This document shows positions 4,856-59,821 of a DNA stretch of 64,000 nucleotides, piece by piece. A model generated the notes under the pieces. It worked only from the letters and a program-made list of their open reading frames with translations, ran no database searches and had not been told where the DNA came from. Source of the DNA: Longimicrobium sp. (GTDB taxonomy: Bacteria > Gemmatimonadota > Gemmatimonadetes > Longimicrobiales > Longimicrobiaceae); the NCBI GenBank assembly GCA_036377595.1, contig DASUYB010000065.1, positions 1 to 64,000 on the forward strand, given 5' to 3'. A program made the translations under genes and the position numbers. Position 1 is the stretch's first letter; each line of letters starts with the position of its first letter.

Positions 4856-5345
4856 GGACCCTCACCCCCCGGCTTCCTCTGCCGACAGCAGGCCCCGACA
4901 GCAGGCCCCGACAGCAGGAGAGGGGGAGACCTCAGTGCGGGTGGGTGGTGACGGAAGTGGGTGGCCCTCCCCGGCTCGCCCTCCCCGGCTCGCCTAGGCT
5001 CGCCACCCCTCCCGTACCGGGAGGGGTAGGGGTGAGGAGATCGGCGCGGACAGCGGGGATGGGCGCGGCCGCGGGGTGGCCCCCTCCCCCGGCCCCTCCC
5101 CCGCTGCGCAGGGGAGGGGAGAACAAAGCGCGGGGAAGGCGACGGGAGCGGACCGCGGGCCTCGCGGTGCACCGGAGCTTCTGACCGCGCCGCCAGATGC
5201 GCGGCAGATGGCACCCCCACCCTCTCCCGGTACGGGAGAGGGCGAGCGCTCTAAGGCGCGGGGAGAGGGCGGCCGGAGGGCCGCACGAAGGACGAAGGCT
5301 GATGCGGGTTTCGAGCGAATCCGAGCGACGACTGAAGGATACACG
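4856..5345. repeat. Spacer PKS-1/NRPS-A: mosaic of R1-R2-R3-R4 repeats
   Basis: No gene is seen. A 13-bp unit (CGACAGCAGGCCC) is repeated about three times at 4882-4918. Then come R1 (about 4964-5037, hairpin core CCCTCCCGTACCGGGAGGG), R2 (about 5041-5135, CCCCTCCCCCGCTGCGCAGG ending near GAACAAAGCG), R3 (about 5155-5209) and R4 (about 5213-5285). The last 60 bases before NRPS-A are unique and hold a ribosome binding site, GAAGGA, at 5334-5339. I see no convincing promoter or terminator apart from the repeat hairpins. Confidence 0.75.
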
Positions 5346-22800: not shown

Positions 22801-24035
22801 CCGGCGGGATCCCGCGCTCGCTGCGGCGCATCAACCTGGGCGGCGAGGCGCTCCCCGCCGCGCTGGCGCAGGGGCTCCACGCGCTGGGGACGCTGGAGAC
22901 GGTGGGGAACTACTACGGGCCGACGGAAGACACCACCTACTCGACCTGGCACTTCGTCCCCCCCGGCGCCGAGCGCGTCTTCGTGGGCCGCGCCGCGCCG
23001 AACAAGCGGATGTACGTGCTCGACGCGCATCTCCGCCCCGTGCCGTTCGGCGTGGCCGGCGAGCTGTGGATCGGCGGCGAGGGCGTGTCGCGCGGCTATC
23101 ACCGGCGCCCGCGGATGACCGCCGAGCGCTTCGTTCCCGACCCGTTCTCCGGCGTCCCCGGCGCGCGGATGTATCGCGTGGGCGACCGGGTTCGCTGGCG
23201 GAGCGGGGCGGAGGCGGGAAGTGCGGAAGTGCGTGAGTGCGGAAGTGCGCCGGATTCCGCGCGCGAGGAGCGCACTCACGCACTCGTGCACTCACGCACT
23301 TCCGCACTCGTGCACTCACGCACTCACGCACTTCCCGCCCCGGCGACGGCGGTGCTCGAGTACCTCGGCCGCATCGACTTCCAGGTGAAGCTGCGCGGCC
23401 ACCGCATCGAGCCGGGCGAGATCGAGGCGGAGCTGATGCGCGATCCCGGCGTGCGCCAGGCGGTGGTGGCCGCGCGCGGCGAGGACGCGGCGGCGCGCCT
23501 GGTGGCGTGGATCGTTCCCGCCGGCGACGAGCCCAGCCCGGCCGAGCTGCGGGCGTGGCTCCGCGCGCGGGTGCCGGAGTACATGATCCCCTCGGCCTTC
23601 GTCATCGTGCCCGAGTTGCCGCTGTCCCCGAACGGCAAGGTGGACCGCGACCGGCTTCCCGACCCCGCGCCCGAGCGCCCCGCCGAGGCCGCGCCGAAGA
23701 GCGCCGCCGAGCGCGCCGTGGCCCGGGTGTGGGAGGAGGTGCTGGGGGTGCCGGTGGGGGTGGACGACAACTTCTTCGAGATCGGCGGGCACTCGCTGCT
23801 GCTGGCGCGGGTGCAGGAGGCGCTGCGCGCGGCGATGGCGACGGAAGTGTCGGTGATCGACCTCTTCCAGTTCGCCACCGTGCGGCAGCTCGCCGAGCAG
23901 CTCGACGCCCGCGCGAAGGCCGCCGCGGCGCCCGACGACCCCGCCGCCGCGCCGCGCGACGAGACCGCGGCGGCGCAGGTGGGGCAGGACCGCGCGGCGA
24001 TGCGGCGGGAGATGCTGCGGCGGTCTCCTAGGTAG
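13881..24035 (+). CDS. Non-ribosomal peptide synthetase, three modules (C-A-T)x3 (NRPS-C)
   Basis: This 3384-aa protein has three elongation modules. Module 1: C about 35-470 (HHIVSDG), A about 485-1030, T Ser1084. Module 2: C about 1140-1575 (HHVATDA), A about 1600-2165, T Ser2213. Module 3: C about 2270-2705 (HHIISDG), A about 2735-3250, T Ser3305. Hand-read codes: A1 DPENVGGVTK (no match remembered), A2 DVQFIAQVIK (close to the Pro code DVQFIAHVVK, with Gln for His), A3 DVASNGYTYK (no firm match). All three A domains carry A7-A8 palindrome inserts, and A2 also carries a NEFAATTT element. The ATG at 13881 is preferred to the in-frame GTG at 13875, which overlaps the previous stop, because GGGAGAGGGG at 13866-13875 is better placed for it. 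The C-terminus (after Ser3305 about 80 residues) is polar and ends RREMLRRSPR; the stop lies in a tandem repeat. Confidence 0.93.
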   Translation: MADATDRLAGLSPEKRRLLEMRLRMARQAASSGDPGTLQPRARPDGTAPLSFAQQRLWVLERMAPGEPTWNIPTAMRLRGALDISALERALDALRRRHESLRTTFAEREGRAVQVVHPFAPVPLPVDDLSGLGPEARVAEATRRAQADMDTGFDLEAGPLFRARLLRLGDDDHVLLMCVHHIVSDGWSMGVIQREMERLYAAFAAGLPDPLAPPALQYADYAAWQREQLSGERLQGAIDFWRRALDGAPPALELPADHPRPRAQRNRGARTYAGLPREATERLRELAHAENATLFAVLLAALRVVLTRWSGEDDVVIGTPVAGRTRVETEALVGYFINTLALRTPLAGDPSFRALLRRERDTALDAFQHQELPFERVVEELKVPRDPARSPVFQVMCSLANATGGGAPAFAGVKVEPVEVELSFSKFDLSFEAHDLAEGLAVACDYDTALFEKATAQALVDHLVLVLARAAGSPDAAVSALAAGPRGVAETALERASAACARGETVPARFLAWARRAPDAPVLAWRDGGMRYAELAARSGALAADLRAAGARAESIVGVYADWSPELVVALLGVMRSGAAYLPLDPSLPAERIAWLLEDSGARTIVTTPALRDRISSDLPVVLVDASAAAGDEGEGDEEIDPASAAYLLYTSGTTGTPKGVVVPHGAAAAHFAAVAEAFGLRADDRVLGFAAPSFDPSLEQVLAPLAVGASVAVRDAEPWAPAELPERLAALGVTVANLPTSYWHQLVRDADAAAATKQAVRLLVAGGEAMHPDAARAWDALPGGAALLNGYGPTEAVVTAAVFPVPTGFADADPARMPIGAAVGGREPRVLDAALRPVPDGVPGELYLGGFALARGYLGRPALTAASFVPDPFSATPGARMYRTGDRVRWTKVRECESAKVRECESAKVRECEGDPHGAETTFAPSHPRTFALDYLGRADAQLKIRGARVEPGEVEAALRALPNVADCAVAARADAAGAMRLAAYVVPRGAFDPAAVRAELSARLPAYLVPSAIVAVDALPRTATGKIDRRALPSPDFGAARASRGEAPATPDEELLAAIWREVLSIDAVHAGDDFFELGGHSLLATQVVTRVRAAFGVELPLRAVFEAPVLRAQARRIAELRLAGEGAPAGPIPRADRARPLPLSFAQERLWFIDQLEPGNAAYNVPVALELRGALDVAALERALGEVVRRHEPLRTVFAHDGDAPTQVVQPFAGFPLPVADLTSLQGDEREAETERILADEATRAFDLATGPVLRARLLRRGDGDHVLSLVLHHVATDAWSSGVLFGELAALYDAFRRGDESPLADLPVQYADFAAWQRGWLRGPALERQAAYWRRRLAGIPAVLDLPADRPRPAVQDLAGALLPFSLPADAVAGARALARQEGATPFMVLLAAFSALVHRLTGEEDVVVGTPIANRMRPELERLVGFFDNTLALRADVSRDPGFRALLARVRETTLEAYAHQDVPFEKLVDELKTERSLSHTPLFQVMLTLQNAPTASAVPALGEVEVLPRAVETGTSRFDLTLILAESPDGGMGGWAEYATALFDETSIERLTRHLGALLGAAVAAPDAPLSTLSFLSQEEEEQVVRGFNATDRPRAAETVHALVSAQAARTPDAVAVEQRGERVTYAELEARANRLAHRLRRLGMGPDARVAVAMERSIEMVVATLATLKAGGGYVAVDPNYPADRVAYMLADSRAAVVVTTSAVAARLPASGAAVLRVDAERDAIAAEPPDDPRVPVDPENLLYVLYTSGSTGKPKGAALPHRALANLLRWQTERWGIGGEGDGAGVEGANEFAATTTRSLPSQTTGDGADAAAARATAPARTLQFASLSFDVSFQEIYSTWASGGTLVLIDDDTRRDAEALIAHLREHRVERLFLPFAALQNLAETAEGMDARLPDLREVITAGEALRSTPQLRAFFAANPQARLENQYGPSETHVISAHLLEGDTEAWAALPPIGAPVDNTRLYVLDARMRPVAAGVPGELYAGGANLARGYLGRPSLTAQKFVPDPFGAPGGRLYRTGDRVRWTECESAKVRECESDSSRDGTTFAPSHSRTFALEYLGRTDFQVKIRGFRVEPGEIEAALTEHPSVVQAAVVVRGEGAGKRLAAYVVPAAGMAPSIADLRAHLAANLPEYMVPTAWRVMPSLPLTPSGKVDRRSLPEPEAMPTAAHVPPRTPAERMVADAWEAVLGVRPGAHDNFFDLGGHSLRATQVVARIRRAFGVDLPLRALFEAPTVAGLAERVTSARRGGDAHLPPLVPTERGRTSPLSFAQQRYWFVERMGAAGPAYNMPMELRLHGRLDLGAMEAALNALVARHEALRTTFHFRDGAPLQEVAPELFIPLPVTDLSALGESERDAEAARRGEAEARTPFDLAAGPLIRWQLLRLGEEEHELLLNMHHIISDGWSMGVLFRELGALYAAALEGRGDPLPPLAIQYPDYAAWQRERMSGEALERELAWWRERLEGAATLALPTDRPHPPVQSFRGASHPFDMPPELVARVEALARAENATPFMVLLAAFQALLARWSGTEDVVVGSPVAGRVPEETEGLIGTFANTLALRTDLSGDPTFRALLERVRERVVDAYAHQDLPFERLVEELKVERSLSVHPLFQVVFSMHAQGAPAPALPGLRVEMREGQTSTAKVDLLLALAHADGRMAGVFEYARDLFDPETIERLSAHFEVLLDAITRAPGERISALRVMREDEEAYVLRALNDTAADHPRGLGIHQLFEAQAERTPDAAAVVHAGARWTYAAVESRANRLARRLRALGVGPEVKVAVCMERTPELVVALYAVLKAGGAYVPVDPAYPADRIGFMVAESGAPVVLTHASLAASLPATGARVLRVDADWEAEVAGESDARLDLPADERTLAYVIYTSGSTGRPKGVQIEHRSTVGLLHWLRGHVSDDERRAVLGSTSVSFDVSIAEIFGTLSWGGTLVLVRDALALRGVDEPVALASMAPSAAAELLRTGGIPRSLRRINLGGEALPAALAQGLHALGTLETVGNYYGPTEDTTYSTWHFVPPGAERVFVGRAAPNKRMYVLDAHLRPVPFGVAGELWIGGEGVSRGYHRRPRMTAERFVPDPFSGVPGARMYRVGDRVRWRSGAEAGSAEVRECGSAPDSAREERTHALVHSRTSALVHSRTHALPAPATAVLEYLGRIDFQVKLRGHRIEPGEIEAELMRDPGVRQAVVAARGEDAAARLVAWIVPAGDEPSPAELRAWLRARVPEYMIPSAFVIVPELPLSPNGKVDRDRLPDPAPERPAEAAPKSAAERAVARVWEEVLGVPVGVDDNFFEIGGHSLLLARVQEALRAAMATEVSVIDLFQFATVRQLAEQLDARAKAAAAPDDPAAAPRDETAAAQVGQDRAAMRREMLRRSPR
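16556..16683. repeat. In-frame A7-A8 palindrome, copy 2 (NRPS-C A1), expanded left arm
   Basis: This is the longest copy. Its left arm holds at least seven octamer units and is translated KVRECESAKVRECESAKVRE, while the right arm is the usual TFAPSHPRTFAL. The 8-residue period VRECESAK equals three octamers (24 bp), so unit gain in steps of three keeps the frame. Confidence 0.9.
19268..19316 (+). repeat. NEFAATTT element, coding copy in NRPS-C A2
   Basis: The sequence GCGAATGAATTCGCTGCAAC leads to a terminal hairpin (AGTCTGC-CTTC-GCAGACT, 19299-19316) and is read ANEFAATTTRSLPSQT. It lies before the A-domain segment FASLSFDVS, in a loop enlarged to roughly 19222-19365. Related copies lie at 48799-48845 (coding) and 60899-60948 (non-coding, opposite strand). 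Confidence 0.85.
19983..20076. repeat. In-frame A7-A8 palindrome, copy 3 (NRPS-C A2)
   Basis: Arms of about 35 nt differ at only a few positions and flank a loop of about 24 nt. It is translated CESAKVRECES, loop DSSRDGT, then TFAPSHSRTFAL. The loop is nearly identical to those of copies 6 and 7 in NRPS-E. Confidence 0.9.
23216..23336. repeat. In-frame A7-A8 palindrome, copy 4 (NRPS-C A3), divergent
   Basis: This is a diverged family member. Units are GTGCGGAA and GTGCGTGA, and the right arm is longer (THALVHSRTSALVHSRTHAL). Outer ends GGGAAGTGCG and CGCACTTCCC pair. It sits at the same A7-A8 position as the others. Confidence 0.85.
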
Positions 24036-24072
24036 CCCTCCCCGGGTAGCCCTCCCCGGGTAGCCCTCCCCG
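24031..24072. repeat. Three tandem 14-bp units spanning the NRPS-C stop codon
   Basis: GGTAGCCCTCCCCG is repeated three times. The TAG stop of NRPS-C (24033-24035) lies inside the first unit. A similar GGGTAGCCCTCCCC junction supplies the stop of PKS-2 at 29103-29105. Confidence 0.85.
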
Positions 24073-24575
24073 GCTCGCCTAGGCTCGCCACCCCTCCCGT
24101 ACCGGGAGGGGTAGGGGTGAGGACACCGGCGCGGGCGGCGGGAATGGACGCGGCCGCGGGGTGGCCCCCTCCCCCAGCCCCTCCCCCGCTGCGCAGGGGA
24201 GGGGAGAACAAAGCGCGGGGGACGCGACGGAAGCGGACCACGGGCCTCGCGGTGCACCGGAGGCTGTAACCGCGCCCGTGGCTGCGCGGCAGATCGGAAC
24301 CCCACCCTCTCCCGGTACGGGAGAGGGCGAGCGCTCTAAGGCGCGGGGAGAGGGCGGACCGGGGGCTGCACAGCAGCAGTCGGTCGGCCTCGGGCCTCGC
24401 GGTGTACCGGAGTCTCTGACCGAGCCGCAAGACGCGCGGCAGATGGCACCCCACCCTCTCCCGGTACGGGCCCCGTTATCGGGAGAGGGCGAGCGCTCTA
24501 AGGCGCGGGGAGAGGGCCGCCGCGCCGGCGCTGGCGACGTGATTCACAGTTGGAGACGATAAAGAGCACAGTGTG
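24036..24575. repeat. Spacer NRPS-C/PKS-2: tandem 14-mers and R1-R2-R3-R4 mosaic
   Basis: No gene is seen. After the tandem units come R1 (about 24075-24122), R2 (about 24125-24220), R3 (about 24240-24295), R4 (about 24299-24385), R3 (about 24395-24446) and an unusual R4 (about 24450-24518). In the last one, the GGTACGGG left part is joined to a CCCCGTTATCGGGAG right part, as if two R4 subtypes had recombined. The 50 bases before PKS-2 are unique and less GC-rich. Confidence 0.75.
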
Positions 24576-36195: not shown

Positions 36196-46020
<9,825 letters not shown>

Positions 46021-46466
46021 GAGCCCTCACCTGGCATCGCGCCCTCTCCGGCATCGCGCCCTCTCCGGCTCGCCTAGGCTCGCCACCTCTCCCCTACCGG
46101 GAGAGGTAGGGGTGAGAACATCGGCGCGGGCGGCGTGGATTCGCGTGGCCGCGGACTGGCCCCCTCCCCCGGCCCCTCCCCCGCTGCGCAGGGGAGGGGA
46201 GAACAAAGTGGGGGGTACGTGACGGTGCCGACCTCCGGCCTCGCGGTGCACCGGAGCCTGTAACCGAGCCGCAGGCTGCGCGGCAGACCGGAACCCAACC
46301 CTCTCCCGGTACGGGAGAGGGCGAGCGCTCTAAGGCGCGGGGAGAGGGCGGACGGAAGGCGGCATTGCAGCAGTCGGTTGGTCTCCGGCCTCGCGGAGAG
46401 GGCGGGACGGGCGCGCGCTGACGGTGCGGATCTGCGCACGTGAACGGGTTACCTGTTGAAGTCTAG
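46021..46466. repeat. Spacer NRPS-E/NRPS-F: R1-R2-R3-R4 mosaic
   Basis: No gene is seen. A CATCGCGCCCTCTCCGG unit is repeated twice just after the stop. Then come R1 (about 46060-46120, with a GAGAGG variant stem), R2 (about 46125-46210), R3 (about 46231-46283), R4 (about 46287-46375) and a fragment of R3. The ribosome binding site before NRPS-F is weak (TTGAAGTCTAG). Confidence 0.75.
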
Positions 46467-49400
46467 ATGACCGAAGTCTCGAAGAAGCTGGGCGAGCTGT
46501 CGCCGGAGCAGCGGAAGCTCCTCGCGCTCCGGCTGCGGATGCAGAAGGCGAAGGAATCCGCCCCCGCGCCGCAGGAGCGCGAGGGCGGCGTCTTTCCGCT
46601 CTCGTTCGCGCAGCAGCGCATGTGGCTGCTGGACCGGCTGGACCCCGGCGCCACCGCCTACAACCTCGCCTTCCCCTGGCGCCTGCGCGGCCCGCTCGAC
46701 GTGCCCGCGCTGGAGCGCGCCGTCGCCGAGATCGTGCGGCGGCACGAGACGCTGCGCACCCGCATCGACGTCCGCGACGGCGAGCCCGCGCAGGTCGTCG
46801 AGCCGTTCCGCGAGTGGACGCTCCCCGTCGTCGACCGCCCCATCCCCGAGGCGGAGCGCGAGGCGGAGCTGGCGCGCATCGCCACGGAGGAGGCGAACCG
46901 GCCGTTCGACCTGGCCGCGGGGCCGCTCTTCCGCGCGCTGCTGGTGCGCGCCGCCGACGACGACCACCTCTTCGTCTGGTCCGTCCACCACGTGGTCGGC
47001 GACGGCTGGTCCACCGGCGTGTTCGACCGCGAGCTGAAGGCGCTGTACGAGGCGTTCGCCGCCGGCCGCTCGTCGCCGCTGCCGCCGCTGCCCATCCAGT
47101 ACGGCGACTTCGCGGTGCGGCAGCGCGAGCGGCTGTCGGGCGAGGCGCTGGAACGGCAGGTGGCGTGGTGGAAGGATCGCCTGGCCGGCGCGCCCGCGCT
47201 GCTCGAGCTGCCGACGGACCGCCCGCGCCCCGCCGTCCGCTCCGACCGCGGCGACGTCGTCGGCTTCGAGGTGGAGGGCGTCGCCGCGGCGGTCGAGGCG
47301 CTGGCGCGCGAGGCCGACGCCACGCCGTTCATGGTGCTGCTCGCGGCGTGGCAGGCGCTGCTCGGGCGGTGGTCGGGGCAGGACGACGTGCTGGTCGGCA
47401 CGCCCATCGCCAGCCGCACCACGCCGGACGTGGAGCCGCTGATCGGCTACTTCGCCAACACGCTGGTGCTGCGCGGCGACCTGGGCGGCGACCCCACCTT
47501 CCGCGCCCTCCTCGCCCGCGTGCGCGAGGCCACGCTGGGCGCGTACGAGCACCAGGATCTCCCCTTCGAAAAGCTGGTGGAGGAGATCAACCCCGGGCGC
47601 AGCCTCAGCCACACGCCGCTCTTCCAGGTCGCGTTCGTCTTCCAGAACCTGGCCGCGGCCACGGGCATCACCGAGCAGCGCCGGCTGGGCGACGCGGCGA
47701 TGGAGCCCGCCGGCCGCGGCCGCGAGACCGCCAAGTTCGACCTCACGCTGACGCTGGTGCAGGACTCCGGGCGTACCCTCGGCAGCCTCGAGTACGCCGC
47801 CGAGCTGTGGGACCGCGCCACGGTGGAGCGGATGATCGGCCACCTCGGCGTCCTGCTGCGCGAGGCGCTGCGGCGGCCGGACGCGCGCATCTCCGATCTC
47901 CCGCTGCTGATGGACGCCGAGCGCGTGGAGCTGGAGGCGCGCGCCCGCCCCGCCGCCGCCTTCGCTGCGGACGAGCCGCTGCACGTCCGCTTCGCCGCGC
48001 AGGCCGCGCGCTCGCCGGACGCCGTCGCGGCGACGTACGAGGGCGAGCGGCTGACGTACGCGGAGCTGGACGCGCGCGCGAATCGACTCGCGCATCACCT
48101 GGCCGCGCGCGGCACGCGGCCGGGCGATCTCGTCGGCCTGTGCGTGGAGCGCTCGCTGGAGACGGTGGTCGGCATCCTGGGCATCCTCAAGGCCGGCGCC
48201 GCCTATCTCCCGCTCGACCCGGCGTACCCGGACGAGCGCATCGCGCACATGCTGGCCGACTCCGGCGCGCGCCTCGTCCTCGCGACGGCGGACCTCGCGT
48301 CGCGGGTTTCGGGAGATGGCATCACCGCGATCCTCCTCGATTCCGACCGCGCGGAGATCGACGCGCATCCGTCCATCCCCCCCGCCGTGGAGGTGGATGG
48401 CGATGCGCTCGCGTACGTCATCTACACCTCGGGCTCGACGGGGCGGCCGAAGGGCGTGCAGGTGACGCACGCGAACGTGATGCGCCTGTTCGCGGCGACG
48501 GACGAGTGGTTCGGCTTCGGCGCGGACGACGTGTGGACGCTCTTCCACTCGTACGCGTTCGACTTCTCGGTCTGGGAGATCTGGGGCTCGCTGCTGTACG
48601 GCGGCCGGCTGGTGGTCGTCCCCTTCTACGTCAGCCGCAACCCCGACGCCTTCCGCGACCTGCTCGCCCGCGAGCGCGTGACGGTGCTGAACCAGACCCC
48701 CAGCGCCTTCCGCCAGCTCATCCGCGCCGACGAGGAGGCGTGGGGAGATCGCAGTCGCTCGGCCTCTGGTGGCCAGGCCCCGGCGCGGGGGAGCCGGGCG
48801 AATGAATTCGCGGCAACAACTACACAAAGTCCGCCTTCGCGGACTGGGGCGCTGGCTGGTCCTGCCGAAGCAGACCCCGACGCGGGCTCCAACGCGCATC
48901 CCGCGGCTGCGAGCGGGCTTGCGCTCCGCTGCGTCATCTTCGGCGGCGAGGCGCTGGACCCGGCGTCGCTGCGCGGGTGGGTGGAGCGGCACGGCGACGA
49001 GGCGCCGCGGCTGGTCAACATGTACGGCATCACCGAGACGACGGTGCACGTCACCTATCGCGTGATCCGCGAGGCGGACGTGCTCGCCGGCTCGGCCAGC
49101 CCGATCGGCATCCCCATCCCCGACCTGTCGGTGCAGGTGCTCGACCCGCGCGGCCGCCCCGTCCCCGTGGGCGTGGTGGGGGAGATGTACGTCGGTGGCG
49201 CGGGGGTGGCGCGCGGCTACCTCGGCCGTCCCGCGCTGACCGCCGAGCGCTTCGTCCCCGATCCGTATCCGCCCGTCCCCGGCGCGCGCCTATACCGCTC
49301 GGGAGATCTGGCGCGGTGGACCGAAGTGCGAGAGTGCGAAGGTGCGAAAGTGCGAGAGCGGGACGCCGCGGCCGACGCCTCGTCCGGCGCTGAGTCCACT

Positions 49401-52400
49401 TTCGCACTCTCGCACCCTCGCACTCTCGCACTCGAGTACCTCGGCCGCGCCGACGACCAGGTGAAGGTCCGCGGCTTCCGCATCGAGCTGGGCGAGATCG
49501 AGTCGGTGCTGCTCGAGCATCCGCGCGTCCGCGAAGCCGTCGTCCTCGCCCGCGGCTCCGGCGACGACAAGCGCCTCGTCGCCTGGGTCGTCCCGTCGAA
49601 CGGAGACGCTGCGGTTCCCCCTCCCCCAGTCGGTTCCGGGGGAGGGGGTGGCGAGCGTAGCGAGCCGGGGGAGGGGGCGTCCGCAGCGCGGCTGACGGCG
49701 GAGCTGCGCGCGCACCTGTCGTCGCATCTCCCCGACTACATGGTGCCGTCCGCCTTCGTGGCGATGGACGCGCTGCCGCTGACCCGCAACGGCAAGGTCG
49801 ACCGCCGCGCGCTGCCGGAGCCGGACCTCGCCGCGTCGGCCGTGGAGTACGTCGCGCCGCGCACGCCGGACGAGGAGACGCTCGCCGGCATCTGGGCTCC
49901 ACTACTGGGAGTGCCGCGCGTCGGGGCGGAGGACGAGTTCTTCGCGCTCGGCGGGCACTCGCTGCTGGCCACGCGCGTCATCACCCGCGTCCGCGAGGCG
50001 TTCGGCGTCGACCTCCCGCTCCGCGCCGTCTTCGAATCTCCCACCCTTTCCGCGCTCGCCGCCGAGATCGGCCGGCTGGCGGGGACGGGGACGGAGGCGC
50101 CGCCCATCGTCCCCGTCGACCGCACGGGCGACCTGCCGCTGACCTTCGCGCAGGAGCGGCTCTGGTTCGTGGACCGGATGGAGCCCGGCAGCATGGTCGT
50201 CACCATGGGCTCCGTCTACCGCCTCTCGGGCGCGCTGGACGCCGCCGCGCTCGAGCGCGCGCTGGGCGAGGTGGTGCGCCGCCACGAGTCGCTGCGCTCC
50301 GTCTTCCCCGAGGTCGACGGCACGCCGGTGCAGCGCGTGCTCCCGTGGCGCGCGTACCATCTCCCGACGACGGACCTAAAGGCGCTGCCGGAGGACGAGC
50401 GGGGCGCCGCGGCCGGGCGCATCGTGCGCGAGCCGTTCACCACGCCGTTCGACCTGGCGCGCGGGCCGCTGCTGCGCGCGGTGCTGGTGCGGCTGGACGA
50501 GGGCGAGCACCTGTTCGCCTTCAACCTCCACCACGTGGCGGGCGACGGGTGGTCGCTCGGCATCTTCTTTGGCGAGCTGGCGGCGCTCTACGACGCGTTC
50601 GCGCGCGGCGAGCCGTCGCCGCTCGCCGAGCCGGCGGTGCAGTTCGGCGACTACGCCGCGTGGCAGCGCGCGTGGCTGCGGGGCGAGGTGCTGGAGCGGC
50701 AGCTCGCCTACTGGCGCGGCAATCTGGCCGGCGCGCCGCCGCTGCTGGAGCTGCCCACCGACCGCCCGCGCCCCGCCGTCCAGAGCTACCGCGGCGCCGA
50801 CGAGCATGCCGTCCTTCCCGCGGACGAGCTGGCGGCGATCCACGCGCTCGGCCGCGCCGAGGGGGCCACGCTGTTCATGACGCTGCTGGCGGCGTTCTCG
50901 CTCGTCCTCGGCCGGCTGGCGGGGCACGACGACGTGGTGGTGGGCACGCCCATCGCGGGGCGCACACGCGCGGAGACGGAGCGGCTGATCGGCCTCTTCC
51001 TCAACTCGCTGGCGATGCGCACGGACCTCGGCGGCGACCCCTCGTTCCGCGAGTTGCTCCGCCGCGTGCGCCGCACCACGCTCGACGCGTACGCGCACCA
51101 GGACGTGCCCTTCGAGTTGCTGCTGGCCGAGCTGCAGCCCCGGCGCAGCGTGAGCCACACCCCCGTGTTCCAGGTGATGCTGAACCTGCAGAACTACGAG
51201 GGCGGGGAGATGCGGTTCGGCGGGGTGGAGGTCGAGGGATACGGCCACGCGGGCGAGCAGACCAGCAAGTTCGACCTCACGCTGTACGCCACGGAGATGC
51301 CGGACGGCCTGGCGCTGCGCCTGGTGTACGCGCGCGACCTGTTCGGCGCCGCGCGGATGCGCGAGCTGCTGGACCAGCTCCGCGCCGTCCTCGCGCAGGC
51401 CGCGGCGGACCCGGACGCCGCCACGTCGCGCATCACGCTGCAGACGGAGATGGCGCGCGCGGTGCTCCCCGACCCCGCGGCGGAGCTGTCGAACGCGTGG
51501 CGCGGCAGCGTCCCCGAGCTGTTTGCCCGCCGCGCGTGCGAGGCGCCGCACGCCCTCGCCGCCGAGGATCCGCGCGAGCGCTGGACCTACGCCGAGCTCG
51601 ACGCCGACACGGCGGAGATCGCGAACGACCTCGTCGCCGCCGGCTTGGGGAGCGGCGACGTCGTCGCGATCTGGGGCCACCGCGGCACGGCGCTGGTCCG
51701 CGCGCTGCTGGCCACGCTGCGCTCTGGCGCCGCCTTCCTGGTGCTCGACCCCGCGTATCCGCCCGCGCGCCTGGCCGACTACGTCCGCATCGCCCAGCCC
51801 AAGGCTTTCCTGGAGATCCCCGCCGCCGGCGACATCCCCGCCGAGCTCGAATCCGCACTCGCCGAAACCGTCCGCTGCGGCATCACCATCTGCGGAAAAC
51901 CAGGCGCCGTACCCGCGGGACGTCATCCTGAGGCCGGCCACACCGAACCCGCGTCCGCACCAGAGGATGCAGGCCGAAGGATCTATAGCCCGGGGGAGCA
52001 CACAGCCGGGGACGCGAGCGAAAGCCACCCCGGCGCCGCAGTAATCCACGGCAGCGCCGAAGCCAGCCCGGCCGCGCCGGCATCGGGCGGCTACCTCTCC
52101 CGGTACGGGAGAGGTGGCGAGCCTAAGCGAGCCGGAGAGGGCGCCCCAGCCGGAGAGGGTGCGCTGCCGGAGTCGCGCGCCGAGATCGGCCCCGACACCC
52201 TCGCCTACCTCTCCTTCACCTCGGGCACCACGGGCACGCCCAAGGCGGTGATGGGCCGCCACGGCTCGCTCACGCACTTCACCCCGTGGCTCGCGGAGAC
52301 GTTCGGCCTCTCCGCCGGCGACCGCTTCAGCCTGCTGAGCGGCCTGGCGCACGACCCGCTCCACCGCGACGTGTTCACGCCGCTGCAGCTGGGCGCCGCC

Positions 52401-55400
52401 GTGGTCGCGCCCGAGCCCGACGAGGTCGCCGCGCCCGGCTATCTCGCGCGCTGGATGCGCGAGGCCGGCATCACCGTGGCGCACCTGACGCCCGCGATGG
52501 GCCAGCTCATCGCCGACGTCCCCGGCGGGGTGGAGCGCGCCGCGCCGGTCGAATCCCTGCGCCGCGCCTTCTTCGTCGGCGACGTGCTCACGCGCGGCGA
52601 CGTGGAGCGCCTGGGCCGCCTCGCGCCCAACCTCACCGTCGTCAACTACTACGGCTCCACCGAGACGCAGCGCGCCGTCGCCTACCACGTCGTGCAGATG
52701 GACGAAGATGGTGATGGAGATGCCGCCCGCGAGGTGATCCCGCTCGGGCGTGGCATCCCCGGCGTGCAGCTGCTCGTCCGTTCCACGAGCGGCGGAATGG
52801 CGGGGATCGGCGAGGTGGGCGAGGTGTGGCTGCGCAGCCCGCACGTGGCGCTCGGCTACCTGGGCGACGCGGACCTCACGGCATCGCGCTTCGTGCGCAA
52901 CCCATGGCGCGGCGATGCGTGGGACGTGCTGTACCGCACCGGCGACCTCGGCCGCTACCGCCCCGACGGCGAGGTGGAGCCGATGGGCCGCGCCGACCAG
53001 CAGGTGAAGGTCCGCGGCTTCCGCGTGGAGCTGGGCGATATCGAGGCCGCCCTCGCCCGCCACCGGCAGGTGCGCGAAGCCGTCGTGATCGCCCGCGGCG
53101 ACGCAGCCGACCGCCGCCTCATCGCCTACATCGTCCCCCAGCGCCTCTCCGGCGGTGATCCGCAGGACGCGCTTCAGGCCGCGCCGACCCCGTCCCTCCC
53201 CCAGTCGGTTTTGGGGGAGGGACAGGCGAGGAACGAGCCAGGGAGAGGGCCTCGCGAGGTCGCGGCCGCGCAGGTGCCCGTGGAGGGCGCGAGTCCCGGC
53301 CCTGACCCCGAGACCCTTCGCGCCCACCTCCGGGCATCGCTGCCGGAGTTCATGCTCCCCGCCGCGTTCGTCACGCTCGAGCGGCTGCCGCTGACGCAGA
53401 ACGGCAAGGTCGACCGCCGCGCGCTCCCCGATCCCGCGCCGGAGCACGCGGAGACGCGCACCGCGCCGCGCACGGAGACGGAGCGCGCCGTCGCGGAGAT
53501 CTGGCGCGAGGTGCTGGGTCACGAGGTGGGGGTGGAGGACGATTTCTTCGCCAGCGGCGGCCATTCGCTCCGCGCGACGCAGGTGCTGTCGCGCATCGAG
53601 CATCGCTTCGCCGTGAGGCTGCCGGTGAAGACGATCTTCGCCGCGCCCACCGTCGCCGCGCTCGCCGCCGAGATCGACGCGCGCGGCGGCGACTTCATCG
53701 CATCCCCCGACACCGGCGAGTTCGCGTCCGAGTATGGCGAGGGCGTCTACCCGCTGTCGTTCGCGCAGCAGCGACTCTGGCTGCTCGACCGTTTGGAGCC
53801 GGGGAGCGCCGCGTACAATCTCCCCGCCGCGTACCGCATCCGCGGCGCGCTCGACGCCCCCGCGCTGGAGCGCGCGCTCGGCGAGATCGTTCGCCGCCAC
53901 GAGACCCTCCGCACGCGCATCGAGACGCGCGGTGATGACGAGCCCGTGCAGGTCGTCGACCCCGCGGACGATTTCCATCTCCCGATCATCGAAAAGCCGG
54001 AGATAGCGGACGACGAGCTGCGCCGCATCGCCACGGACGAGGCCGCGCGCCCGTTCGACCTCGCGCGCGGCCCCCTCTTCCGCGCGATGCTCGTCCGCAT
54101 CGCCGCGGACGACCACGCGCTGCTCTGGACGCTGCATCACGCCATCAGCGACGGCTGGTCGACGGGCATCCTGCTGCGCGAGCTGAACGTGCTGTACTCG
54201 GCGTTCGCAGCCGACCCACTCAGCACTCAGCACTCAGCACTCAGCACTTCCGTACCCGATCTCCCGATCCAGTACGGCCAGCACGCCGTCCGCCAGCGCC
54301 GCCGCCTCTCCGGTGCCGCGCTCGACGAGCAGGTGCGCGTGTGGAAGGAGGCGCTCGCCGGCGCGCCGTCGCTGCTGGATCTGCCCACGGATTGGCCGCG
54401 CCCGGCGGTGCAGAGCTATCGCGGCGCCACGCTCGGCTTCGGGCTTCCGGACGAGCTGATGGCGCGCGTCGCCGGGCTCGCGCGGCGCGAGGGGGCCACG
54501 CCGTTCATGGTGCTCCTGGCCGCCTACCAGGCCGTGCTCTCGCGCTGGTCGGGGCAGAACGACGTCGTGGTCGGCACCCCCGTGGCCAACCGCACCTCGG
54601 CCGACGTGGAGCCGCTGATCGGCTTCTTCGCCAACACCCTGGCGCTGCGCGGCGATCTGTCCGGCGCGCCCACCTTCCGCGAGCTGCTGGCGCGCGTGCG
54701 CGAGGCGTCGCTCTTCGCGTTCGACCGCCAGGACCTGCCGTTCGAGAAGCTGGTCGAGGAGCTGCAGCCCGAGCGCAGCCTCGCGCATTCGCCCGTCTTC
54801 CAGGTGATGTTCGCGCTGCAGAACGTGCCGCGCGAAGGCCCGCGCCTGGACGGGCTCGAGATGTCGCCCATCGGCCGCGCCGGCGAGGCGGCCAAGTTCG
54901 ACCTCTCGCTCACGCTGGTGCAGGCGCCCGACCGCACCTTCGGCGCGGCCGAGTACGCGACCGACCTGTTCGACGAGGCCACGATCCAGCGCTTCGTCGG
55001 CCACTTCGCCACGCTGCTGGACGCGGCCACGCAGCAGCCCGACGCGCGCGTCGCCGATCTCCCGCTGATGCCCGACGCGGAGCGCGACGAGCTGATGCGC
55101 ATCTCCGCCGGCCCGGAGGTCGCGCGCGAGCCGTCGCTCACGCTGCACGGGCTGTTCGAGGCGCAGGCCGCGCGCACGCCCGACACCGTCGCCGTCACCT
55201 TCGAGGGAAGGTCGCTGACGTACGCGGAGATGGATGGCCGGGCCAATCAGCTCGCGCATCTCCTCCGTGCGCGCGGCGTCGGCCCGGAGACGCCCGTCGC
55301 AGTCTTCATGGAGCGTTCGCTGGAGATGGTGATCGCGCTCTACGGGGTGCTCAAGGCGGGGGGATGCTACATCCCCGTCGACCCCGAGTACCCGGCCGAG

Positions 55401-57830
55401 CGCATCGCGTACATGCTGGAGGATTCCGCCGCGCGCGTCGTCCTCACGCAGCAGCGGTGGATGGAGATGCTTCCCGCCCCGGCCGAAGCCATCGCGCTCG
55501 ACGCGCCCGGCGTGCTCGACGGCTTCCCCTCATCGTCCGTCGATGGAGATGCCGATCCCGACGCGCTGGCGTACGTGATCTACACGTCGGGATCGACCGG
55601 CCGGCCGAAGGGCGCGGGGAACGCGCACCGCGGCATCGTCAACCGCATCCTGTGGATGCAGGAGACGTTCGCCCTCGGCGCGGACGACGTGGTGCTGCAG
55701 AAGACGCCGTTCTCGTTCGACGTCTCCGTCTGGGAGTTCTTCTGGCCGCTGATGGCCGGCGCGCGGCTGGCCGTGGCCGCGCCCGGCGCGCACCGCGACC
55801 CCGCGCGGCTGACGGAGACCATCGCGCGCGAGCGGGTGACGACGCTGCACTTCGTCCCCTCCATGCTGCGGCTCTGGCTGGACGAGGCGGCGCCGGAGCG
55901 CGTCCCCACCCTCCGCCGCATCGTCGCCAGCGGCGAGGCGCTGCCGCCGGAGCTGCGCGACCGCTTCTTCACGCGACTCCCCGGCGTCGAGCTGCACAAC
56001 CTCTACGGCCCCACCGAGGCCGCCGTCGACGTTACCTGGCACCCGTGCGTGCCGGGCGAGGCGGCGGTGCCCATCGGCCGCCCGGTGGCCAACACGCGTA
56101 TCCACGTGCTCGACGCGCGCGGCAACCCGTGCCCGCCCGGCGTCCCCGGCGAGCTGCACATCGCCGGCGTGCAGGTGGGCCGCGGATACCAGCATCGCCC
56201 CGCGCTCACCGCCGAGCGCTTCGTCCCCGACCCGTTCGCCGATCATCCCGGCGCGCGCATGTACCGGACTGGGGATCGGGCGAGGTGGACGGAAGTGCGA
56301 AAGTGCGAAAGTGCGAAGGTGCGAAAGCACGACGGTGAAGACGCGGCCTCTCCCAGCGCCGAGACCACTCTCGCACCCTCGCACTCTCGCACTTTCGCAC
56401 TCGAGTACCTGGGGAGATACGACTTCCAGGTGAAGATCCGCGGCCTCCGCGTGGAACTGGGCGAGATCGAGGCCGCGCTCGCCGCCGATCCGTCCGTCCG
56501 CGAAGCCGTCGTCGCCGCGCGGGGGGAGGGCGAGGACGCGCGCCTCGTCGCGTGGGTCGTCCCCGCGGATGGAGATGGGATTTCCGCCGATGTGCTGCGC
56601 GAGCGCCTCGGTCGCGCGCTGCCGCCGTACATGGTGCCGGGCGCGTTCGTGGAGATGGACGCGCTCCCGCTCACCCCCAGCGGCAAGGTCGACCGCAAGT
56701 CGCTCCCCGATCCCGACATGCGCGCGCGGCCGGATGCGTTCGTCGCGCCGTGGACGGCCACGGAGATCGAGCTCGCCGACGTCTGGCGCGAGGTGCTGGG
56801 CGTGGAGCGCGTCGGCGCCGCGGACGACTTCTTCGCGCTGGGCGGGCACTCGCTGCTGGCGGTGAAGCTGGCGTCGCGCATCCGCCAGCGCTTCGGGCGC
56901 GAGCTGCCGCTGGCGGAGCTCTTCCGCAGTCGCACCCTGCGCGCGCTCGCCGCCGCCCTCGAGCGCGATGGTGGTGGCGCGCCCGCGTCGCCGCTGGTCG
57001 CGCTGCTCGCGGGCGGCACGCGGACGCCGATCTTCTGCGTGCACCCGGCCGGCGGCACCGTCTTCCGCTACGCCGACCTGTCGCGCCACCTGGGCCCCAG
57101 CCAGCCGTTCTACGGCCTCCAGGCGCAGGGCGTGAACGACGACGCCGAACCGCTGGCCACGGTCGACGAGATGGCGGAGCGCTACCTCGACGCCATCCGC
57201 GACGCCTTCCCGCGCGGCCCGTACGTGCTCGCCGGCTGGTCGGCGGGCGGCGTGATCGCGTACGAGATGGCGCGGCGGCTCGGGGAGATGGGCGAGGCCG
57301 TCCCCCTCGTCGTCCTCCTCGACACCCACGCGCCGAATGAGGACTGGGAGACGCGGGCGCCCGACGAGGTGGACCTGTATCTCCGCTACACGCACGACCT
57401 TGCCGGCGTCGGCCCCGAGCGGCTGGCGGAGCTGGAGATGGAGCTGCGCCCGCTCGCGGGCAACGCGCGCCTCCCCGCGCTGGCGGCGTGGATCGCGCGC
57501 AGCGGCCTCCCCGTGGCCGAGGCCACGCTCGCGCAGATCGGCCGCAGCGTGCGCGTCTTCGCCACCACCATGCGCGCCGTCAACGAGCACCGTCTCGGCG
57601 CCTACGCGGGCGACGTCCTTCTCGTCGAGGCCGCCGACGGCATCCCCGGCCTCCCCGCGCCCGAGGGCGGCATCGCCGCCGCCTGGCGCCCGCACGTGCG
57701 GGGGAGCCTGGAGGTGCGCACCGTCCCCGGCACCCACGGCACCTTCATCAGCGACCCGTATGCGGCGGAGGTGGCGCGGGTGCTTGAAGAATGTTTTGCG
57801 CGTTCAGGGAATCCCGCCGTTGTGATCTGA
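46467..57830 (+). CDS. Non-ribosomal peptide synthetase, three modules plus thioesterase (C-A-T)x3-TE (NRPS-F)
   Basis: This 3787-aa terminal subunit has module 1: C about 30-470 (HHVVGDG), A about 505-1110, T Ser1165; module 2: C about 1220-1655 (HHVAGDG), A about 1680-2315, T Ser2367; module 3: C about 2425-2870 (HHAISDG), A about 2890-3410, T Ser3462; thioesterase about 3510-3785. Codes: A1 DFWNIGMVHK (exact Thr code), A2 DPRHFVYRAK (Lys2/aminoadipate-type motifs, LAHDPLHRDVF and ETQRAV), A3 DVWHVSLVDK (Ser-like). The TE has nucleophile Ser3592 (GWSAGG), candidate Asp3619 (LLDTHAP) and His3757 (GTHGTF), and should release or cyclise the product. The N-terminus LSPEQRKLLALRLRMQ may dock. 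This protein carries the most in-frame repeats: palindromes in A1 and A3, a NEFAATTT element and GC-rich hairpin in A1, about 290 bp of mixed repeats plus a hairpin element in A2, and an ACTCAGC array in C3. Confidence 0.94.
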   Translation: MTEVSKKLGELSPEQRKLLALRLRMQKAKESAPAPQEREGGVFPLSFAQQRMWLLDRLDPGATAYNLAFPWRLRGPLDVPALERAVAEIVRRHETLRTRIDVRDGEPAQVVEPFREWTLPVVDRPIPEAEREAELARIATEEANRPFDLAAGPLFRALLVRAADDDHLFVWSVHHVVGDGWSTGVFDRELKALYEAFAAGRSSPLPPLPIQYGDFAVRQRERLSGEALERQVAWWKDRLAGAPALLELPTDRPRPAVRSDRGDVVGFEVEGVAAAVEALAREADATPFMVLLAAWQALLGRWSGQDDVLVGTPIASRTTPDVEPLIGYFANTLVLRGDLGGDPTFRALLARVREATLGAYEHQDLPFEKLVEEINPGRSLSHTPLFQVAFVFQNLAAATGITEQRRLGDAAMEPAGRGRETAKFDLTLTLVQDSGRTLGSLEYAAELWDRATVERMIGHLGVLLREALRRPDARISDLPLLMDAERVELEARARPAAAFAADEPLHVRFAAQAARSPDAVAATYEGERLTYAELDARANRLAHHLAARGTRPGDLVGLCVERSLETVVGILGILKAGAAYLPLDPAYPDERIAHMLADSGARLVLATADLASRVSGDGITAILLDSDRAEIDAHPSIPPAVEVDGDALAYVIYTSGSTGRPKGVQVTHANVMRLFAATDEWFGFGADDVWTLFHSYAFDFSVWEIWGSLLYGGRLVVVPFYVSRNPDAFRDLLARERVTVLNQTPSAFRQLIRADEEAWGDRSRSASGGQAPARGSRANEFAATTTQSPPSRTGALAGPAEADPDAGSNAHPAAASGLALRCVIFGGEALDPASLRGWVERHGDEAPRLVNMYGITETTVHVTYRVIREADVLAGSASPIGIPIPDLSVQVLDPRGRPVPVGVVGEMYVGGAGVARGYLGRPALTAERFVPDPYPPVPGARLYRSGDLARWTEVRECEGAKVRERDAAADASSGAESTFALSHPRTLALEYLGRADDQVKVRGFRIELGEIESVLLEHPRVREAVVLARGSGDDKRLVAWVVPSNGDAAVPPPPVGSGGGGGERSEPGEGASAARLTAELRAHLSSHLPDYMVPSAFVAMDALPLTRNGKVDRRALPEPDLAASAVEYVAPRTPDEETLAGIWAPLLGVPRVGAEDEFFALGGHSLLATRVITRVREAFGVDLPLRAVFESPTLSALAAEIGRLAGTGTEAPPIVPVDRTGDLPLTFAQERLWFVDRMEPGSMVVTMGSVYRLSGALDAAALERALGEVVRRHESLRSVFPEVDGTPVQRVLPWRAYHLPTTDLKALPEDERGAAAGRIVREPFTTPFDLARGPLLRAVLVRLDEGEHLFAFNLHHVAGDGWSLGIFFGELAALYDAFARGEPSPLAEPAVQFGDYAAWQRAWLRGEVLERQLAYWRGNLAGAPPLLELPTDRPRPAVQSYRGADEHAVLPADELAAIHALGRAEGATLFMTLLAAFSLVLGRLAGHDDVVVGTPIAGRTRAETERLIGLFLNSLAMRTDLGGDPSFRELLRRVRRTTLDAYAHQDVPFELLLAELQPRRSVSHTPVFQVMLNLQNYEGGEMRFGGVEVEGYGHAGEQTSKFDLTLYATEMPDGLALRLVYARDLFGAARMRELLDQLRAVLAQAAADPDAATSRITLQTEMARAVLPDPAAELSNAWRGSVPELFARRACEAPHALAAEDPRERWTYAELDADTAEIANDLVAAGLGSGDVVAIWGHRGTALVRALLATLRSGAAFLVLDPAYPPARLADYVRIAQPKAFLEIPAAGDIPAELESALAETVRCGITICGKPGAVPAGRHPEAGHTEPASAPEDAGRRIYSPGEHTAGDASESHPGAAVIHGSAEASPAAPASGGYLSRYGRGGEPKRAGEGAPAGEGALPESRAEIGPDTLAYLSFTSGTTGTPKAVMGRHGSLTHFTPWLAETFGLSAGDRFSLLSGLAHDPLHRDVFTPLQLGAAVVAPEPDEVAAPGYLARWMREAGITVAHLTPAMGQLIADVPGGVERAAPVESLRRAFFVGDVLTRGDVERLGRLAPNLTVVNYYGSTETQRAVAYHVVQMDEDGDGDAAREVIPLGRGIPGVQLLVRSTSGGMAGIGEVGEVWLRSPHVALGYLGDADLTASRFVRNPWRGDAWDVLYRTGDLGRYRPDGEVEPMGRADQQVKVRGFRVELGDIEAALARHRQVREAVVIARGDAADRRLIAYIVPQRLSGGDPQDALQAAPTPSLPQSVLGEGQARNEPGRGPREVAAAQVPVEGASPGPDPETLRAHLRASLPEFMLPAAFVTLERLPLTQNGKVDRRALPDPAPEHAETRTAPRTETERAVAEIWREVLGHEVGVEDDFFASGGHSLRATQVLSRIEHRFAVRLPVKTIFAAPTVAALAAEIDARGGDFIASPDTGEFASEYGEGVYPLSFAQQRLWLLDRLEPGSAAYNLPAAYRIRGALDAPALERALGEIVRRHETLRTRIETRGDDEPVQVVDPADDFHLPIIEKPEIADDELRRIATDEAARPFDLARGPLFRAMLVRIAADDHALLWTLHHAISDGWSTGILLRELNVLYSAFAADPLSTQHSALSTSVPDLPIQYGQHAVRQRRRLSGAALDEQVRVWKEALAGAPSLLDLPTDWPRPAVQSYRGATLGFGLPDELMARVAGLARREGATPFMVLLAAYQAVLSRWSGQNDVVVGTPVANRTSADVEPLIGFFANTLALRGDLSGAPTFRELLARVREASLFAFDRQDLPFEKLVEELQPERSLAHSPVFQVMFALQNVPREGPRLDGLEMSPIGRAGEAAKFDLSLTLVQAPDRTFGAAEYATDLFDEATIQRFVGHFATLLDAATQQPDARVADLPLMPDAERDELMRISAGPEVAREPSLTLHGLFEAQAARTPDTVAVTFEGRSLTYAEMDGRANQLAHLLRARGVGPETPVAVFMERSLEMVIALYGVLKAGGCYIPVDPEYPAERIAYMLEDSAARVVLTQQRWMEMLPAPAEAIALDAPGVLDGFPSSSVDGDADPDALAYVIYTSGSTGRPKGAGNAHRGIVNRILWMQETFALGADDVVLQKTPFSFDVSVWEFFWPLMAGARLAVAAPGAHRDPARLTETIARERVTTLHFVPSMLRLWLDEAAPERVPTLRRIVASGEALPPELRDRFFTRLPGVELHNLYGPTEAAVDVTWHPCVPGEAAVPIGRPVANTRIHVLDARGNPCPPGVPGELHIAGVQVGRGYQHRPALTAERFVPDPFADHPGARMYRTGDRARWTEVRKCESAKVRKHDGEDAASPSAETTLAPSHSRTFALEYLGRYDFQVKIRGLRVELGEIEAALAADPSVREAVVAARGEGEDARLVAWVVPADGDGISADVLRERLGRALPPYMVPGAFVEMDALPLTPSGKVDRKSLPDPDMRARPDAFVAPWTATEIELADVWREVLGVERVGAADDFFALGGHSLLAVKLASRIRQRFGRELPLAELFRSRTLRALAAALERDGGGAPASPLVALLAGGTRTPIFCVHPAGGTVFRYADLSRHLGPSQPFYGLQAQGVNDDAEPLATVDEMAERYLDAIRDAFPRGPYVLAGWSAGGVIAYEMARRLGEMGEAVPLVVLLDTHAPNEDWETRAPDEVDLYLRYTHDLAGVGPERLAELEMELRPLAGNARLPALAAWIARSGLPVAEATLAQIGRSVRVFATTMRAVNEHRLGAYAGDVLLVEAADGIPGLPAPEGGIAAAWRPHVRGSLEVRTVPGTHGTFISDPYAAEVARVLEECFARSGNPAVVI
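48799..48845 (+). repeat. NEFAATTT element, coding copy in NRPS-F A1
   Basis: It is read RANEFAATTTQSPPSRT and ends in the hairpin AGTCCGC-CTTC-GCGGACT (48828-48845). It sits in a loop enlarged to roughly 48745-48920, between the segment TPSAFRQL and RCVIFGGEAL, a different A-domain loop from the NRPS-C copy. Confidence 0.85.
49323..49434. repeat. In-frame A7-A8 palindrome, copy 8 (NRPS-F A1)
   Basis: It is translated VRECEGAKVRERD, loop AAADASSGAES, then TFALSHPRTLAL, directly before EYLGRADDQVK. Confidence 0.9.
49615..49679. repeat. In-frame GC-rich hairpin element in NRPS-F A1
   Basis: CCCCCTCCCCCAGTCGG pairs with a following GGGGGAGGGGG and continues with GGCGAGCGTAGCGAGCC. It is read as low-complexity VPPPPVGSGGGGGERSEPGEG, in the C-terminal subdomain between VAWVVPSNGD and LTAELRAHL. 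The same hairpin family lies at 30883, 53191 and 59681. Confidence 0.85.
51918..51990. repeat. In-frame copy of a dispersed repeat in NRPS-F A2 (shared with 59531-59605)
   Basis: The ends GACGTCATCCTGAGGCCGGCC and AGGCCGAAGGATCTATAG match, in reverse orientation, the ends of the intergenic segment 59531-59605. The middle parts differ. It is translated as part of a non-conserved loop before the A3 motif of the adenylation domain. Confidence 0.8.
52093..52142 (-). repeat. R1 intergenic repeat inside NRPS-F A2, reverse orientation
   Basis: The hairpin ACCTCTCCCGGTACGGGAG is followed by GTGGCGAGCCTAAGCGAGCC, the reverse complement of the R1 element of the spacers (GGCTCGCTTAGGCTCGCCAC). It is read in frame as [18 protein letters not shown]1 is therefore not confined to spacers. 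Confidence 0.85.
53191..53256. repeat. In-frame GC-rich hairpin element in NRPS-F A2
   Basis: The sequence is nearly the same as the non-coding copy at 59681-59744, including the tail with GACAGGCG, CCAGGGAGAGGGCCTCGCG. It is read PSLPQSVLGEGQARNEPGRG, between YIVPQRLSGGD and RAHLRASLPEFM, the same A-domain loop that holds the element at 49615 in A1. Confidence 0.88.
54218..54248 (+). repeat. ACTCAGC heptamer array inside NRPS-F C3
   Basis: Four complete ACTCAGC units plus ACT are read LSTQHSALST. They lie between LNVLYSAF and VPDLPIQYG, where the other C domains have a short loop. Confidence 0.88.
56292..56403. repeat. In-frame A7-A8 palindrome, copy 9 (NRPS-F A3)
   Basis: It is translated VRKCESAKVRKHD, loop GEDAASPSAET, then TLAPSHSRTFAL, before EYLGRYDFQVKIRG. 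Confidence 0.9.
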
Positions 57831-59438: not shown

Positions 59439-59821
59439 CGCGGCGGCAGACACCGTGGTCCGTGCGCTGATCCGGATACCAAGTCGGGGTGAAGTATCGG
59501 TGCGTTCCAACGAATCTCGTGCTGCCGCGGTTATAGATCCTTCGGCCTGCAAACGCTTGCGCAGACGCTGATTACGGTCTGGCCGGCCTCAGGATGACGT
59601 CAGCGTGGGATCGGTCGGGGTGCATCAACCGAGTTCACGGATTTCGTATGAGATGAGTCGCCGCGAGCGGAGCGAGCCCCCGTCCCTCCCCCAGTCGGTT
59701 TTGGGGGAGGGACAGGCGCGGAGCGCCAGGGAGAGGGCCTCGCGGCGTTCGCAATCCCCGGACATGACGAAGCGCCCCCGCGGCCAGGCCGCGGGGGCGC
59801 TTCCCATCTCCATCTACGCCG
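59439..59821. repeat. Spacer with dispersed repeats and a terminator
   Basis: No gene is seen. Segment 59531-59605 (ends GATCCTTCGGCCTGC and GGCCGGCCTCAGGATGACGTC) has a coding relative at 51918-51990. Segment 59681-59744 is the non-coding copy of the GC-rich hairpin element found in frame at 53191. A strong hairpin at 59770-59802 follows. Confidence 0.75.
59770..59802 (-). terminator. Strong hairpin downstream of the NGP-repeat gene
   Basis: A near-perfect palindrome, AAGCGCCCCCGCGG pairing with CCGCGGGGGCGCTT, lies about 20 bases past the stop of the minus-strand gene, where a Rho-independent terminator would be expected; only a weak T-run follows. Confidence 0.75.

Follow-up and report, generated by a model that had tools for sequence, protein, structure and literature searches.

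Dispersed spacer repeats translated in frame within adenylation-domain loops of nonribosomal synthetases in a Longimicrobium genome

Selfish palindromes inserted in frame are known mainly from Rickettsia and from some REP-rich species, where they lie in scattered, unrelated genes; a transposase gene flanked by inverted REPs is a layout termed a REPtron. The Rickettsia elements (RPEs) are palindromes that lie in frame inside genes for proteins (Ogata et al., 2000, 2002; summary in the text of PMC10969869). Intragenic REPs that code for 20–82 amino acids were described by Di Nocera et al. (2013; main text of PMC3733652), and the texts of these two sources establish in-frame intragenic REPs and RPEs, CGTC-tagged ones included (PMC3733652, PMC10969869). 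In the main text of PMC3733652 the CGTC REPs have a stem of 8–9 bp and a loop of 4–5 nt, and the intragenic targets that are emphasised are genes for DNA synthesis and repair; a search of that main text found no mention of nonribosomal synthetases.

We analyzed a window of 64,000 nucleotides of Longimicrobium DNA, the source genome (G000) being a 7.2 Mb draft in 208 contigs. The window contains the nonribosomal synthetase (NRPS) gene NRPS-F, which encodes three adenylation (A) domains and lies in a cluster that also has PKS genes. The features are collected in Table 1. The second A domain of NRPS-F (the A2 domain) has the variant GLAHDPLHRD in its A4 region, which we take to be a trait of Lys2-type domains. 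Its closest named relatives come from Gemmatimonadota/Gemmatimonadetes metagenome bins, and plasmid records searched with the whole gene gave generic NRPS similarity only.

Table 1. Coordinates of the features discussed in the text (window positions, except for the two Y1_Tnp loci).
Feature	Position	Strand	Remark
Family C block, A7–A8 loop of upstream NRPS gene	13157–13241	+	
Family C block, A7–A8 loop	16545–16684	+	Longest arm (64 nt)
Family D block, long A3–A7 core	19254–19356	+	Core of 271 aa
Family C block, A7–A8 loop	19968–20077	+	
Diverged family C block	23217–23349	+	Precedes GRIDF (A8) motif
Family C block, A7–A8 loop	33954–34063	+	
Family C block, A7–A8 loop of NRPS-E	38755–38853	+	
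Family C block, A7–A8 loop of NRPS-E	42046–42154	+	
Intergenic copy of family B, immediately downstream of NRPS-E	46033–46109	-	Closest window relative of the in-gene copy
NRPS-F megasynthase gene containing the insert	46467–57830	+	3787 aa
Family D repeat, A4–A5 loop of NRPS-F A1	48783–48851	+	RANEFAATTTQSPPSRTG
Family C octamer hairpin, A7–A8 loop of NRPS-F A1	49322–49447	+	VRECEGAKVRE..FALSHPRTLAL
Family E-like repeat downstream of A8, NRPS-F A1	49607–49690	+	
A2 domain of NRPS-F, Lys2-like	51498–53460	+	Core motifs intact; AlphaFold2 fold, PDB matches
Spacer-type insert, translated, in the A2–A3 loop of the NRPS-F A2 domain	51918–52175	+	Loop length, codon statistics, pLDDT
Family A dispersed repeat core, CGTC-tagged, arms ATCCT..GGCC / GGCC..AGGAT	51919–51990	+	blastn, copy census
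Linker separating family A and B repeats	51991–52090	+	~100 nt
Family B dispersed repeat, CTAC + CTCTCCC..GGGAGAG hairpin	52091 to ~52178	+	Core 52091–52146, conservation weaker beyond
Family E repeat downstream of A8, NRPS-F A2	53188–53274	+	TPSLPQSVLGEGQ..; predicted disordered, model residues 556–597
Heptamer repeat (CACTCAG)n, condensation-domain loop of NRPS-F	54217–54251	+	
Family C octamer hairpin, A7–A8 loop of NRPS-F A3	56283–56410	+	
Intergenic family A copy	59519–59601	-	Near the site named by the initial annotation
Family D around Y1_Tnp gene, C192	L191 1137–1184 and 1986–2027	+ and -	
Family D around Y1_Tnp gene, C130	L190 1366–1393 and 1906–1938	+ and -	

The A2–A3 loop of the NRPS-F A2 domain is anomalously long. 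The distance from DPAYP to FTSGTTG is 164 residues, compared with 79–93 in 16 distinct homologous A domains with a measurable loop, a set that includes NRPS-E A3 of the same cluster; this sister domain, which the initial annotation described as short, has 81. The comparison therefore gives a net insert of ~77 residues (71–85). The reading frame of NRPS-F is uninterrupted across 51880–52170, as annotated, but the extent then given to the spacer DNA, the whole of this interval, needs a modest correction. The insert is real and contains two repeat families, but its net length is less than the 97 codons of the interval, which starts with a native β strand (model residues 127–130) and has ~100 nt in its middle part without a convincing match elsewhere in the genome sample. 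We also looked for an unrelated conserved loop of equal length in orthologues, which the initial annotation had set against its own reading, and found none among the homologous domains with a measurable loop. The sole other long loop, of 114 residues in an A domain of G008 (same genus), holds a different dispersed repeat, which has 54 other matches in G008. Because its repeat family differs and belongs to the genome of G008, this is an independent second event in the A2–A3 loop. The same G008 domain has a second repeat-like insert (PLPLSARNEQGGGRGEGP) ahead of LRRAFFVGD (L149, G008:C449, 5836–5960).

The codon statistics of 51885–52176 are of the non-coding type. The stretch has log-odds of −0.27 per codon; 1045 windows of long genes average 0.54 (sd 0.14), and none of them scores as low. 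GC3 is 0.70 in the insert, 0.97 upstream and 0.94 downstream, and coding statistics are strong on either side. An AlphaFold2 model of the A2 domain, built with 18 sequences, has a mean pLDDT of 78.4. Model residues 141–158 and 168–226, which lie inside the insert, have pLDDT below 50, as do residues 556–597 (53163–53288, spanning the family E block) and the three residues at the C-terminal end; elsewhere the model is a confident A domain, and the top PDB matches are NRPS adenylation domains. The insert is predicted to be a disordered loop within a confidently folded A domain, and the predicted loop-derived peptides include HPEAGHTEPASAPEDAGR and AGEGAPAGEGALPESR. The many insertions in NRPS-F could be read as the mark of a decaying gene, with a dispensable A2 domain gathering insertions. 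We regard this as highly unlikely: the A-domain motifs are kept, the frame of the whole protein is open between flanks with strong coding statistics, and the blocks observed are restricted to loops, whereas decay would bring frameshifts too.

A blastn search with window positions 51870–52190 against the source genome gave at least 53 hits (40 of 450 candidates scored), and these separate into two dispersed families, at query positions 31–143 (window 51900–52012) and 203–301 (52072–52170). Copies were counted in a 1.89 Mb sample, which is 26% of the genome. The family A core has 65 copies, 63 of them intergenic and two genic, both in NRPS genes; the family B core has 46, of which 45 are intergenic and the only genic one is that in the NRPS-F A2 domain. 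Family A copies start with CGTC in 56 of the 60 with covered ends. The stem (ATCCT..AGGAT) begins with AT, its arms are tens of bases apart, and copies are found as +- neighbours or dimers. In family B, CTAC (GTAG reversed) stands beside the stem in 32 of 46 copies, with the consensus CTACCTCTCCC. Family B folds better than shuffled sequences (z −2.54); family A has its arms but folds no better than shuffles (z −0.55). Within the genus, family A is strong in G001 and G003 and weak in a third genome, G002; it was not found in the remaining relatives searched.

These families bear out the relationships that had been annotated. The repeat near 59531 is an intergenic copy of family A, at 83% identity and on the minus strand, and the 17-nt head GACGTCATCCTGAGGCC is identical at 51919 and 59585. 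The element called R1 is family B: 52091–52115 matches 11 other window sites with at most three mismatches (shuffles expect 0.00), and its description as reverse-oriented is correct because the nearest copies are on the minus strand. Downstream of megasynthase genes, spacer copies of family B are regularly laid out in -/+ pairs about 190 bp apart (window 4965–5274, 24063–24356, 46033–46350 and elsewhere). The open frame is not remarkable in itself, given that 16 of 35 copies of family A and 10 of 22 of family B are open in the frame used here. Nor does the insert appear to be one captured intergenic stretch: A and B are never adjacent in that order among the genome hits or in the 1.89 Mb sample, where the linker between them has no convincing match elsewhere. 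The homologues, of which the best has only ~76% protein identity and none is a close orthologue, yielded neither the insertion ends nor a target-site duplication.

The insertion event itself is well supported. The reading follows from the identity of the repeats, their absence from homologous domains, the non-coding codon use, the intact motifs and the recurrence of such insertions in G008 and in about 30 blocks of the source genome; the repeat families, the codon statistics and the predicted disorder together uphold the earlier proposal that intergenic repeats entered a gene. Families A and B probably inserted into the A2–A3 loop and survived because they were in frame and because this loop tolerates disorder. 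The dispersed REP-like spacer elements would have arrived through transposition, or else through repair or recombination that drew on spacer DNA. Only insertions that kept the reading frame and fell in a tolerant loop would have survived, the A2–A3 loop itself being presumably neutral.

The case first annotated is one of about 30 in-frame repeat blocks in the source genome. When spacers were searched against the genes in 1.13 Mb, 30 interior blocks were found, 29 of them in NRPS genes; the remaining one is borderline, and its gene lies at the end of a contig. In the 1.89 Mb sample, with genes called by a simple codon-based custom caller, 30 blocks fall in 15 of the 24 A-domain genes, whose interiors total 228 kb, and one falls in the 1,419 other genes (919 kb interior), where it is a collagen-like coding repeat. 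The bias is strong (binomial P ~2e-20 on interior length; Fisher by gene 1e-28), and the sampling of contigs partly for repeats and NRPS genes affects the NRPS count but not the scarcity elsewhere. The pattern extends to G003, where 4 of 6 A-domain genes hold 13 blocks and 144 other genes hold 1, and to G001, where 1 of 3 A-domain genes holds 2 blocks and 124 other genes hold none. Gene length as the sole cause is disfavored by eight other genes, a small sample, that are 4 kb or longer and have no block. With about 30 in-frame repeats there and almost none elsewhere, NRPS enzymes therefore seem to be places where repeats can land and be tolerated. The CACTCAG heptamer array also occurs in spacers, and its copy in the condensation-domain loop reads in frame as LSTQHSALSTS.

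A draft of this many contigs, with an insert made of repeats, might also suggest that a short-read assembler stitched a repeat into the gene. Such an artefact is extremely unlikely, because the sequences on either side are parts of a single A domain in a single frame, and because similar events are seen at about 30 sites and in three further genomes of this genus.

The blocks (NRPS genes on contigs C65, C108 and C25; window 13157–56410) lie mostly in the A7–A8 loop, immediately ahead of the hinge motif A8. Across 169 A domains of other bacteria the A7–A8 loop has 12–16 residues (13 in 164 of them); in 18 domains of the source genome and one of G001 it has 36–50 residues and carries a family C octamer hairpin. 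Hairpins of this type are also common in spacers, and family C folds far better than shuffles (z −8.8). The better-than-shuffled folding of families B and C, and the recurrence of one element, always in one frame, in many A7–A8 loops, are consistent with an adaptive role for the added peptide or the RNA hairpin, for example in partner contact, translation pausing or mRNA stability. Such a role nevertheless seems very doubtful: the A2–A3 insert is predicted to be disordered, its codon use is unadapted, different families occupy that loop in different genomes, and family A folds no better than shuffles. Furthermore, 26 A domains of the source genome, those on C79 and C175, manage without, having normal 13-residue A7–A8 loops and no repeat blocks. 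The repeat-bearing loop is present in 8 of 10 A domains on C65, 9 of 15 on C108, 1 of 4 on C25, 0 of 15 on C79 and 0 of 11 on C175 (C65 and C108 together against C79 and C175: 17/25 vs 0/26, P 7e-8). These 26 domains imply that tolerance alone does not predict where repeats are found. Passive tolerance in a permissive loop is the most likely explanation.

On a tree of A domains, the repeat-bearing A7–A8 loop needs 13 changes, gains and losses pooled, of which at least 10 are forced by well-supported branches, some branches of the tree being long. This count disfavors a single inherited insertion as the source of all the loops. One loop interior (TCGCGYGACGRAACC...) occurs five times genome-wide, only in A7–A8 loops of distant A domains, which disfavors purely fresh insertion for all of them; in addition, some loop pairs are ~90% alike, with flanks at 67–80%. 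From the tree changes, the shared interior and the alike loop pairs, it seems that loops were gained from spacer-type DNA and were also copied from one A domain to another; some insertions may thus have been copied later, seemingly in the A7–A8 loop.

The same three observations would also suit repeats that act as recombination seams, where like DNA in equivalent loops enables pieces of A domains to be exchanged between modules and this exchange, not fresh insertion, spreads the loops, and A-core recombination is already known to drive NRPS evolution (PMC8097286). We consider this unlikely. The exchanges described in PMC8097286 fall mainly within Acore and preserve the Asub interface, no second A domain with the A+B arrangement of the A2–A3 insert was found in the 1.89 Mb sample, and small gene conversion of loops would look identical with no need for a role in module exchange. 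A broader reading, in which NRPS genes of this genus are a preferred reservoir of spacer repeats and same-family repeats in equivalent loops of many A domains supply portable homology, so that modules swap A-domain pieces more readily, is more doubtful still, although if true it would mean that selfish repeats speed the diversification of peptide products. The insertions mark sites at which adenylation domains naturally accept added sequence, which is of use in NRPS engineering, and the repeat-bearing loops offer a direct route to asking if repeats shape the evolution of NRPS modules.

In the main texts of the open-access literature searched, we found no description of repeats in Longimicrobium spacers or NRPS loops, and the concentration of repeats in NRPS adenylation-domain loops is apparently the undescribed part. 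The elements themselves resemble published ones in several respects. Family A shares with the CGTC REPs in the main text of PMC3733652 the CGTC end tag, a stem starting with AT and the +- dimers, but its loop is far longer than 4–5 nt, so that the short-loop geometry is lacking. Family B carries the GTAG tag of the GTAG REPs of that text (as CTAC) adjoining its stem.

A likeness to RAYT/REPtron systems is seen in family D, which also occurs in NRPS-F. The source genome has two Y1_Tnp (RAYT-type) genes above the cut-off, and family D brackets both in inverted orientation; a candidate transposase therefore exists for this family. The only families with matches at the two loci are C, D and F; unlike the REPs of a REPtron, families A and B match near neither gene.

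The closest parallel in outcome is with the Rickettsia RPEs, which we compared by description. Families A and B are RPE-like in the general sense that they are dispersed in many copies and that the in-frame copy is missing from homologues. Both systems comprise several families of short dispersed repeats, in frame, that add peptide to the product. They differ in their targets: RPEs are found in many unrelated genes, whereas the repeats described here lie nearly all in NRPS genes, so that in-frame insertion by several unrelated families, in four genomes of one genus, is concentrated in one gene class, for the most part at corresponding loops of a single type of domain, the adenylation domain.
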